IMG/VR virus record: IMGVR_UViG_3300037189_013006
Coordinates: 1 to 42,699 of that record
From: a virus
Strand: one strand, 5' to 3'
DNA length: 42,699 nt
Positions 34,032 through 35,971 of the stretch are shown piece after piece. The notes under the pieces were generated by a model. The model had not been told where the DNA came from. It saw nothing but the letters and a program-made list of their open reading frames with translations, and ran no database searches. Both the position numbers and the translations under genes were made by a program. Position 1 is the stretch's first letter. Each line of letters starts with the position of its first letter.

Positions 34032-34798
34032 TCGTAAGTATCTTCACTAATATTTTGGGACCATGTAATTAATTCCCAAGAACCATCATGATGTTCAACT
34101 AATGCAGTACAGGATTCTACCCAATCACCGTCATTCATATACATGATGCCATCAATATTTTTGATTTCTGCATTGTGTATATGTCCACAAATCACGCCAT
34201 CAAAACCTCTTTTAATGCAATAGTTAGTGATATTTTTTTCAAAATGAAAGATAAAATCGACTGCTTTTTTAACCTTATGCTTTAAGAATCTACTGAGACT
34301 CCAATATCCAAAACCTAGTCTATGTCTCAACCAGTTTAATTTAGTGTTGGCGCTTAGTATAAAATCATATGCGCGGTCACCTAAAAATGATATCCATGGA
34401 GCAAGTCTGGTGATACCGTCAAATAAATCACCATGTACTACCAAGTATTTTTTACCATCAACGCCTAGGTGTTCATATTGGTTTGCTATCTCTACCATAC
34501 CAAAACCTATATTATAAGATAATAGTGGCCTCAGAAATTCATCATGGTTTCCGGCAATGTAAATAACCTTTGTTCCATCTTTGGAACAACTGAGAATTCT
34601 GCGAATCACATTGGTATGACTTTGCTTCCAGCGCCACTTATTTTGTTGGATTCTCCATCCGTCGATTATGTCACCGACAAGATAAAGGGACTCGCAACTA
34701 TTGTTTTTCAAAAAATCATTAAGTAATGCGGCCTTGCAGTCTTTTGTACCTAAGTGTACATCAGAAATGAAGATACTTTTGTATTTTTTTGTGTCCAT
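34028..34798 (-). CDS. plcP: PlcP-type metallophosphoesterase (phospholipase C-like)
   Basis: A 256-residue calcineurin-like enzyme. Metal-binding motifs: SDVHLG (D13, H15), LVGDIIDGW (D43), GNHDE (N84, H85), VVHGDLFD (H122) and CGHIHNAEI. The extra pattern (LGTKDC, HGDLFDG, LGDRAYDF, YWSLSRF, GDWVESCTALVEH) is that of PlcP rather than of LpxH. PlcP cleaves phospholipid head groups to diacylglycerol when phosphate is short, and partners the adjacent glycosyltransferase. The ATG lies 5 bases after a TATAAATA, so the late transcript may be leaderless; read-through from the tmRNA is also possible. Confidence 0.85.
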   Translation of the reverse strand: MDTKKYKSIFISDVHLGTKDCKAALLNDFLKNNSCESLYLVGDIIDGWRIQQNKWRWKQSHTNVIRRILSCSKDGTKVIYIAGNHDEFLRPLLSYNIGFGMVEIANQYEHLGVDGKKYLVVHGDLFDGITRLAPWISFLGDRAYDFILSANTKLNWLRHRLGFGYWSLSRFLKHKVKKAVDFIFHFEKNITNYCIKRGFDGVICGHIHNAEIKNIDGIMYMNDGDWVESCTALVEHHDGSWELITWSQNISEDTYD

Positions 34799-34803
34799 GA
34801 TTT

Positions 34804-34811
34804 TATTTATA
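34804..34811 (-). promoter_or_regulatory. T4-type late promoter TATAAATA, 5 bases from the plcP ATG
   Basis: Exact consensus on the minus strand, with AAATC before the ATG at 34798; the same 5-base spacing occurs at 23388. Confidence 0.65.
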
Positions 34812-35108
34812 AGTACCAGTTGATTCTGTTTCCAAGTTCAACTGGCAAAACTCAGATGGTGCTTACGCCGCCATCAAAAATGCATCTTCGTTTGCATTTA
34901 CTTGGTTTGCTTGATTTACAGTCATCGCCTACTGGATTGTCCGTGCATATACTTTTTGCCCTGTCGAAACTATTTCCGGCCCATCAAAAGCACACTAAGT
35001 CTTTTTGGCTACTGCCGATACCAAACAGAATATGCTTTTGGTGGACCGGGCGGATACTGCCTCCGCGTCCAGAACTCATTTCTACTTACTTCATACAATC
35101 ATAGCTTC
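34812..35108 (-). ncRNA. ssrA: Circularly permuted (two-piece) tmRNA
   Basis: The acceptor piece comes first: T-stem GCGGA/TCCGC (35066-35050) with loop GGCAGTA, acceptor strand CCGGTCC (35049-35043), then encoded A-CCA ending at 35039. After an intervening segment the coding piece starts at 34982 with GGGCCGG, which pairs with CCGGTCC over all seven positions (one G-U), followed by AAATAGTTTCGACAGG, the conserved tmRNA 5' region. The tag frame GCA...TAA at 34895-34863 encodes ANEDAFLMAA. CAGGGC (34963-34958) pairs with GTTCTG (35075-35070) as P2. The gap ends are complementary: CAAAAGCA (35040-35033) with TGCTTTTG. The T-loop lacks the usual TTCRANY. The exact 5' and 3' ends are estimated. 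Confidence 0.88.
34816..34845 (-). other. Hairpin after the tmRNA tag
   Basis: CCAGTTGA (34845-34838) pairs perfectly with TCAACTGG (34823-34816). It lies between the tag stop and the plcP promoter and may form the 3' end of the coding piece. Confidence 0.7.
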
Positions 35109-35174
35109 TTACTTCGTGAGTTGTAAAAACCCCATGAAAGCAACAAACATAATGAGGAAATACAATGCGATCAT
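35109..35174 (-). CDS. 21-residue single-span membrane microprotein
   Basis: MIALYFLIMFVAFMGFLQLTK, preceded by a strong ribosome site (AAAGGAG, then TTATT before ATG). Almost the whole peptide is one hydrophobic helix. It ends next to the tmRNA acceptor piece, so it may be transcribed with the tmRNA precursor. Too short for normal gene finders; function unknown. Confidence 0.55.
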   Translation of the reverse strand: MIALYFLIMFVAFMGFLQLTK

Positions 35175-35195
35175 AATAACTCCTTTAATTATTTC

Positions 35196-35269
35196 AAAAA
35201 ATCTCAGTTTGGATTCGAACCTTGTCCATGTATTGTCTACCTGCACGTCCCACCGTACTGACCGAGATT
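35196..35269 (-). other. tRNA-like structured element ending in a U-run
   Basis: A 9-bp stem, AATCTCGGT (35269-35261) with ACTGAGATT (35208-35200), encloses about 52 bases that include a perfect tRNA T-loop string GGTTCGAATCC (35221-35211), and a T-run follows. The T-stem has only 2 pairs and no anticodon arm forms, so it is not a working canonical tRNA. It may be a decayed tRNA or a terminator-like leader. Confidence 0.4.
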
Positions 35270-35276
35270 GCATCTT

Positions 35277-35294
35277 AACACATATTTATGTGTT
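35277..35294. repeat. 18-base perfect palindrome
   Basis: AACACATA and TATGTGTT (8 bp each, 2-base spacer) flanking a CATAAATA late-promoter-like motif on the minus strand. Possibly an operator or hairpin upstream of the tmRNA region. Confidence 0.45.
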
Positions 35295-35314
35295 TGGCAA
35301 GATACTACAAACAC

Positions 35315-35971
35315 TCAGGTATTTTGGTCGTTATAGTAACGGATTGCTCGTACTAAACCTGTAATGTGGTCTTCTGTCTTTTCTATAAACAATAAAGGCT
35401 CTTCATTTTCTACCGCCATTATAGTCACCAATTGATTTATAGGTTTGCCAGTCCTTTCTTCTGCCATTAAGGAATAAGCACATTCTTGCCAAAAATAGTC
35501 CTCGATCATATCTTTGGTTTTTATTTTTTTAGACGTTTTAAAGTCTATGATACTCAATACGCCATCAAATTCTCCTATACAATCCACACGACCAGCAACG
35601 CCTAATTTTTCAGACCATAAAGTCTGTTCCTGATACCAAATATTATTAATCCTGTTTAGATAAGGTTTGATGCTAAAGAACATCTCCCTAGCGTCTGGCA
35701 TAACATCACCAAGCGAATCGTTGTTCAGATATCGTTCACATAATGTATGCACATTGGTGCCTCTTCCAGATGCTTTCCTAGAGATTTGGTTGGCAACATC
35801 TTCACCCACCCGACGGCGCCAAGCCTGAATTGCTTCCTTCTTCATTGCACCTAATACGGTGGTGATGGACGGAATACGAACTCCGCTAGGTAAAACATAG
35901 AATCTTTTACCGTCTTGACCAGTTTCAGATTCTAGATTTTCGAGTTCTTTAGGTGGGCAATAGTTAAACAT
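35315..35971 (-). CDS. PD-(D/E)XK nuclease, RecB-like
   Basis: A 218-residue protein with the nuclease core GVAGRVDCIGEFDGVLSIIDFKTSKK (Asp, then D-x-K) and an upstream GRGTNVHTLCERYL. This is the Cas4/RecB-type (MGME1-like) exonuclease family found in many phages, used in recombination, repair or host DNA breakdown. It follows PhoH by 3 bases. The ~35 bases after its stop contain an imperfect hairpin (GTGTTTG/CAAACAC). Confidence 0.8.
   Translation of the reverse strand: MFNYCPPKELENLESETGQDGKRFYVLPSGVRIPSITTVLGAMKKEAIQAWRRRVGEDVANQISRKASGRGTNVHTLCERYLNNDSLGDVMPDAREMFFSIKPYLNRINNIWYQEQTLWSEKLGVAGRVDCIGEFDGVLSIIDFKTSKKIKTKDMIEDYFWQECAYSLMAEERTGKPINQLVTIMAVENEEPLLFIEKTEDHITGLVRAIRYYNDQNT

Follow-up and report, generated by a model that had tools for sequence, protein, structure and literature searches.

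A permuted tmRNA gene in a T4-like phage and the apparent exchange of the excised spacer among related phages

A complete permuted (two-piece) tmRNA gene lies at positions 35108-34816 (minus strand) of a T4-like phage sequence, IMG/VR record IMGVR_UViG_3300037189_013006, whose whole stretch of 42,699 bases, possibly a fragment, is called here the window. Most likely this gene encodes a working tmRNA, and its excised intervening segment (ITS) is a stem-closed RNA module replaced independently of the rest of the gene. Two-piece phage tmRNAs are already known; the exchange of the ITS, the recurrence of similar modules beside tRNA genes and the structured element named R1 are new here.

The tmRNA gene and its relatives

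The sequence-only reading had proposed a phage-borne permuted tmRNA with its own degron-like tag, and had named a covariance-model search beforehand as the check that might refute it. That search gave matches far beyond chance: tmRNA_permuted (Rfam RF04321) matches 35100-34863 (-) with 122.4 bits against a cut-off of 47 (E 1.4e-23), and beta_tmRNA (RF01850) matches 35152-34798 (-) with 89.5 bits, a narrow pass over its cut-off of 84. Besides the score, the gene shows the marks of RF04321 membership, namely a CCA-bearing acceptor 3' strand ahead of the 5' strand, G3-U70, and a tag followed by a stop. The acceptor order, the seven pairs with one G-U, the 5' box and the tag ANEDAFLMAA-stop are all present on the minus strand as that reading described them (Table 1). 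All seven acceptor positions pair; G3-U70, which is the identity pair for alanine, is the one G-U among them. An unforced co-fold of 35108-35039 with 34982-34816 forms the acceptor stem (7 pairs), the T arm, the P2 helices and the 3' hairpin. The excised loop is indeed closed by a stem, with 10 pairs in the fold, although its register is slightly shifted from the one first suggested (AAAGCATATT/AGTGTGCTTT, not CAAAAGCA/TGCTTTTG). ARAGORN, which had also been put forward as a check, called no tmRNA and reported no gene over the window, unlike the Rfam models.

Table 1. Features of the tmRNA region in the window
Feature	Positions	Strand	Basis and remarks
Acceptor piece (P2 strand, T arm, acceptor 3' strand, encoded CCA)	35039..35108	-	Sequence, Rfam, co-fold; putative 5' end
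T arm	35066-35050	-	Loop GGCAGTA at 35061-35055
Acceptor 3' strand CCGGTCC	35049-35043	-	Followed by ACCA, 35042-35039
Excised intervening segment (ITS), 56 nt	34983..35038	-	10 closing pairs; TGAT at end; fold
Coding piece (acceptor 5' strand, D-loop A18 G19, PK1, tag, 3' hairpin)	34816..34982	-	Sequence, Rfam, co-fold; 3' end inferred
Acceptor 5' strand GGGCCGG	34982-34976	-	Followed by AAATAGTTTCGACAGG from 34975
Tag frame ANEDAFLMAA-stop	34863..34895	-	Read by hand and from the model alignment (Rfam search)
3' hairpin of coding piece	34845-34816	-	Co-fold
R1, 76-nt structured RNA element	35197..35272	-	96.1 bits to the R1 model, whose alignment included this copy; covariation; MFE fold equals consensus
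21-codon ORF (MIALYFLIMFVAFMGFLQLTK), hydrophobic	35109..35174	-	Read by hand; AAAGGAG ahead (ribosome-binding site); between R1 and tmRNA
Calcineurin-like metallophosphoesterase, 256 aa	34028..34798	-	PF00149, 8.7e-13; adjoins tmRNA

Related loci in viral contigs were collected through four scans, based on the neighbour gene, the PK1 motif, a T-loop pattern (only the matches listed being taken) and a D-loop pattern; two of these scans selected on the T-loop or D-loop, and the pairs compared are non-independent. When the loci L001-L200 were parsed with no pairing required, 44 distinct tmRNAs were obtained from 80 boxes, the 36 unparsed boxes including duplicates and genes outside the simple pattern. 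Acceptor cells are paired in 99.4% of cases among these 44 tmRNAs, against at most 82.1% in 200 shuffles, and T-stem cells in 100%, against at most 84.1%, while G3-U70 is kept in 44 of 44. A larger parse of 384 genes, used below for the elbow, requires seven acceptor pairs and was therefore left out of the acceptor covariation. The compensatory changes expected from a genuine tmRNA are thus seen in the acceptor and T stems of the relatives; for P2 the check was the co-fold of the window sequence alone.

The portal protein resembles T4-type portals (best identity 56.7%, Cyanophage S-RIM50, among 2,502 records); PHROGs matches comprise tail sheath, portal and scaffold, and Pfam matches gp32, gp59 and PhoH. 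No SmpB was found in the 42.7-kb record, so that use of the host SmpB is assumed. A contig of 65,754 bases (L002) is identical to the window over the 12,768 bases compared and may not be an independent sample. In the INPHARED phage genomes, where near-identical relatives are perhaps omitted, the window tmRNA has no match at 1e-5 and just short partial matches at E≤10. The adjoining metallophosphoesterase is a host-like gene widespread in viral contigs, with at least 598 relatives there, often 75-79% identical, of which 80 were retained. The start of the 21-codon ORF has a similar counterpart in L127.

Elbow and body types

The T-loop GGCAGTA had been regarded as unusual, but it is a common form in Alphaproteobacteria: at least 118 bacterial stretches carry it, mostly titled Alphaproteobacteria, which rules out a unique or decayed T-loop. 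Twelve of the matches listed for the alpha-type T-loop pattern are titled Saccharibacteria (L428, L429, L431 and L441 included). Positions 18 and 55 form the tRNA-type elbow contact, and the 384 distinct parsed tmRNAs, which share ancestry and do not count as independent events, divide into 309 with A18/G55 and 70 with G18/U55, the exceptions being one A18/U55 (L341) and four genes with 6-nt T-loops. In the sets not chosen by their elbow, A18/G55 and G18/U55 occur, respectively, 1 and 10 times among neighbour-gene loci (plus one short loop), 10 and 57 times in the PK1 set (two short loops) and 41 and 3 times among bacterial model matches (one short loop). Where the T-loop had been chosen, A18 was found in 103/103 viral and 98/98 genome records among the matches listed, and where A18 of the D-loop had been chosen, G55 was found in 55/56. 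It follows from these counts that the GGCAGTA loop is one half of a coupled 18/55 pair.

Both elbow types occur on beta-type bodies in the phage set, and from its sequence the window tmRNA is an alpha-like elbow on a beta-type body, with A18/G55 and the loop GGCAGTA in place of the beta-type G18/U55 elbow and its T-loop TTCGANT. The window gene agrees with bacterial two-piece tmRNAs (RF04321, RF01849/RF01850/RF01851) in its gene order, its acceptor and T stems, G3-U70, its tag and its excised segment; what sets it apart is that its beta-type body bears the A18/G55 elbow usual in Alphaproteobacteria. The suggestion that the permutation may point to the host group did not hold in any simple way. 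Permuted tmRNAs score over the cut-off in 5 of 85 genomes from the order of G002 (gammaproteobacterial; the G002 locus L515 is titled Sinobacteraceae), and the five that were read (L530, L591-L594) combine A18/G55 elbows with a beta-like body; in the order of G833 there are 3 in 100 genomes. Moreover, G18 T-loops, one of them of 6 nt, are carried by L003, L004 and L005, three phages in which the neighbour gene shares 88-91% identity with the one in the window. Given this mixture of elbow and body in the G002 order and the differing elbows of the closest phages, the tmRNA by itself does not reveal the host.

The acceptor pattern of the window with GGCAGTA has one match only in viral contigs, the window's own twin. 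The swapping-in of a whole tRNA-like cassette from an alpha tmRNA was also considered, and is unsupported as stated because the window ITS has a relative in L004, whose T-loop is a different one. Several other observations concern tags and additional phages. The tag of L530, ANDSVYDVALAA, is identical to that of phage L004, and long tags of 24-31 residues, against the usual ~10, were read in L042, L045, L093, L116 and others. Putative permuted tmRNAs, unannotated in the stretches viewed, were recognised by eye in Rhodobacter phage RcXuper (L685), Alcaligenes phage vB_Af_QDWS595 (L686) and Xanthomonas phage Rb1 (L687); in RcXuper, two long stem-closed segments lie directly ahead of the putative tmRNA.

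Turnover of the excised spacer

Sequence comparison of 191 distinct phage tmRNAs with an ITS of at least 35 nt indicates that the ITS turns over independently of the body across phages. Among 117 pairs with bodies at least 85% alike, the ITS cores are less than 65% alike in 78; conversely, where the cores are at least 85% alike (77 pairs), the bodies fall below 75% in 39, the acceptor stem differing in 27 of these and the T-loop class in 8. In 26 pairs both ITS and body reach at least 0.85. With other cut-offs, the two kinds of conflict number 25 and 16 among 26,106 pairs. In the family formed by L086, L117, L143 and L348, the ITS cores are 93-100% alike and the T-loop takes four forms, as does the acceptor stem. 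In L168 and L195 a stretch of 170 nt from T arm to D-loop is identical and the bodies are 60% alike, and the two loci (11.2 kb and 6.5 kb) have a single common piece of 248 nt according to blastn, which likewise finds one short common piece in L334/L364 (177 nt) and L320/L355 (156 nt), and more extensive common DNA in, for example, L342/L344 and L086/L104. The stem at the ITS ends is itself well kept: in the 159 of 191 with a TGAT-like end, pairs 2-9 are paired in 96-100% and pair 1 in 73%, each above shuffles. As for the window, its ITS core shares 80% identity with the one in L004, and the 22-nt core pattern occurs in only two contigs, the window itself and L004, so that for this particular copy exchange is no more than a possibility. 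The tmRNA of L005 has an ITS of 175 nt, ~3 times the usual length among near relatives.

The collected viral loci were also searched with nhmmer for 19 ITS families, and copies outside tmRNA genes were found for six of them, five having one within 20 nt of a tRNA gene. In the L137 family, the copies of L650 and L654 lie 5 nt after tRNA-Arg and 6 nt before tRNA-Ala (a match in L323, 551 nt from a tRNA, was excluded from the near count); in the L167 family, one copy lies 7 nt after tRNA-Gln (L674) and another 20 nt before tRNA-Ser (L670). Copies of the L086 family stand 17 and 13 nt before tRNA-Gly (L665, L666), one of the L210 family 14 nt before tRNA-Pro (L317; the copy of L227 has no tRNA) and one of the L097 family 9 nt before tRNA-Tyr (L100). 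The sixth family, L118, has a copy in L389 with no called tRNA, ~190 nt ahead of the same phage's tmRNA. Many of the array loci entered the set through the R1 pattern and are hence tRNA-rich, which is accounted for in the chance figure: such closeness arises in 0.4-2.9% of free placements in the tRNA-bearing loci of the five families. The other 13 families had no copy outside tmRNA in the searched loci, 12 of them having no such match listed and the L144 family one (L187) that was excluded as a tmRNA with a variant box. No ribozyme family scored over its cut-off in 16 loci.

The R1 element

Neither the exchange of the ITS nor the structured element just upstream of the tmRNA figured in the sequence-only reading. 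The first clue to this element, R1, was the ITS of L231, which resembles the stretch ahead of the window tmRNA, and a 19-nt core pattern of R1 is found in 48 viral contigs. R1 consists of a long closing stem, two hairpins with the loops GTGGGA and GACAA, and an invariant GGACAAGGTTCGAATCCAAA. Twenty-eight copies align without gaps over 76 columns; in their four helices 95.4% of cells are paired (74.9% in shuffles), both partners change in 14 of 20 pairs, and the covariation score of 0.567, against 0.166, is reached by 0/500 shuffles, while sliding the partners by 1-3 columns leaves 25.7-41.3% paired. All 28 copies were selected by the 19-mer, and the invariance of the core is therefore partly built in. 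P3 has one pair that fails in 10 of 28 copies, P4 is unsupported because it never varies, and RNAalifold omits P3 and draws P4 differently. Copies outside the 19-mer score 75.3 (L146), 75.3 (L193), 77.9 (L272) and 43.7 bits (L091), those used or found by the 19-mer 86-98 bits.

R1 may be a new RNA family. Rfam 15 holds no family for it: at E≤5 over 34700-35420 of the window, only DUF2815 RNA matches over the element, with 18 bits against 41.2, and in L639 (420-680, E≤10) nothing covers it. Neither ARAGORN nor Rfam finds a tRNA at 35197-35272. In 51 loci read by hand, several of them near-identical, R1 lies ahead of the acceptor piece of a permuted tmRNA in 18 (the window included), inside tRNA arrays in 17, and is the ITS itself in eight (L660, L661, L651, L678, L146, L091, L231, L272); in the remaining eight no RNA gene is evident within 300 nt (L659, L648, L640, L656, L667, L668, L647 and L666, where R1 is 452 nt ahead of a tmRNA). 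An RNA gene was called no more than 300 nt away in 23 of 32 representatives, always in the same orientation (23/23); the nine others include the window and three in which R1 is, by its sequence, an ITS. A blastn search of INPHARED (E≤10), from which near-identical relatives are perhaps omitted, gave matches of only 22-31 nt in 4 records, and R1 is absent from the 100 loci L301-L400. The R1 model has weak matches in 10 of 249 Pseudomonadota genomes, none above 29.8 bits, and tRNA-Lys was called in 4 of the 5 loci fetched, so that R1 may share a tRNA-like elbow.

Discussion

The most likely pathway for this tmRNA would start with a single transcript in which R1 comes first, then the 21-codon ORF, and after it the acceptor and coding pieces with the ITS hairpin between them. 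The ITS would then be cut out by host enzymes, with RNase P cleaving at G1 and 3' trimming up to the CCA, which is the processing of bacterial two-piece tmRNAs. The two pieces would remain paired, be charged with alanine at G3-U70 by the host alanyl-tRNA synthetase, associate with host SmpB and append ANEDAFLMAA to stalled chains, which would be led to ClpXP-type degradation, so that ribosomes would be freed during infection, presumably to the benefit of the phage. Such action during infection would fit the conserved stems, G3-U70 and the intact tag. Across phages the ITS turns over on its own, uncoupled from the body and often from the acceptor stem. The presence of the same kinds of module beside phage tRNA genes suggests that they serve to keep or process RNA ends, and for the spacers end processing or protection appears most likely because they sit at CCA/5'-end sites, are always stem-closed and keep the sense orientation; self-cleavage of the spacer is possible. 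More tentatively, aquatic T4-like phages may fill both the ITS and the gaps of their tRNA arrays from one pool of modules, which would spread as units and process or protect RNA ends; R1 would be a new family of that pool, possibly a mimic of the tRNA elbow or a ribozyme, and the permuted layout would be a harmless landing place.

Other explanations would take the gene itself as inactive or as directed against the host. A host tmRNA acquired by accident, now in decay and without function, might escape ARAGORN and sit in a fragmentary record with no SmpB, as is the case here; however, the seven acceptor pairs, the T stem, the tag frame and the 3' hairpin are intact, and the relatives keep their pairing through double changes and G3-U70 in 44/44, which makes this reading highly improbable. 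The gene could instead act as a decoy blocking host trans-translation, and phage tmRNA-like inhibitors do have a precedent in the tag-less tmRNA form of phage DS6A, reported, in the parts of the source drawn on here, to inhibit the endogenous tmRNA (PMC11915505). The window gene has a full tag frame ending in MAA-stop together with a PK1-like and a 3' part, and a decoy is very unlikely.

With regard to the modules, the ITS could be functional, conserved and inherited with its gene, the mismatching pairs reflecting differences of rate only. This would agree with the covarying ITS stems, with the 26 pairs in which ITS and body are kept together, and with the more extensive common DNA of pairs such as L342/L344 and L086/L104, but the mismatches run in both directions, and L168 and L195 are identical over 170 nt in spite of bodies 60% alike and one common piece of 248 nt, so that inheritance with the gene seems unlikely. 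That R1 is a mere degenerate tRNA gene is rather unlikely as well: its T-loop-like GGTTCGAATCC, its placement between tRNAs and the weak matches of its model to bacterial tRNA-Lys(UUU) (10/249 genomes, best 29.8 bits) would suit such an origin, whereas the R1 copies reach 86-98 bits and have no anticodon arm of tRNA size, and the 14 of 20 double-changed pairs and the invariant core are not what decay would give. Independent replacement of stem-closed ITS modules in a working tmRNA is the reading that we retain.

In the tRNA region of T4-type phages, the stable RNAs 1 and 2 (C and D) are likewise non-tRNA RNAs. In topology, theta ribozymes, which are marked by a double pseudoknot and self-cleavage, have an HDV-like nested fold, whereas the outermost stem of R1 brings its two ends together; to our knowledge, no cleavage has been described for R1. 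The placement of R1 is like that of theta ribozymes, which the portions of the source used here present as small structured phage RNAs at tRNA ends, proposed to process them (PMC10879173). Two-piece phage tmRNAs have been published, and the parts of PMC9004378 considered here report tmRNA in 402 of 18,146 phage genomes, with 53 of 133 unique phage tmRNA structures being two-piece and 50 of these aquatic. The tmRNA of Methylophilales phage Melnitz is an example that, as described in those parts, is phage-borne and two-piece like that of the window, but of alphaproteobacterial type and accompanied by a glutamine riboswitch (PMC9004378). The same parts do not treat an excised segment or an R1-like element, and a literature search at a level short of full texts found nothing on exchanged tmRNA spacers or on such an element.

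The spacer of phage tmRNAs has hitherto been taken as filler, and the permuted layout has long been seen as a by-product. The near-perfect 18/55 coupling provides a simple rule for two elbow types, and the finding that the type of a tmRNA does not by itself name the host is a warning. If the spacers are interchangeable modules common to tRNA arrays, split tmRNA genes would be a natural assay for RNA-processing elements and, if this is true, a new covarying RNA family would become testable in the test tube.
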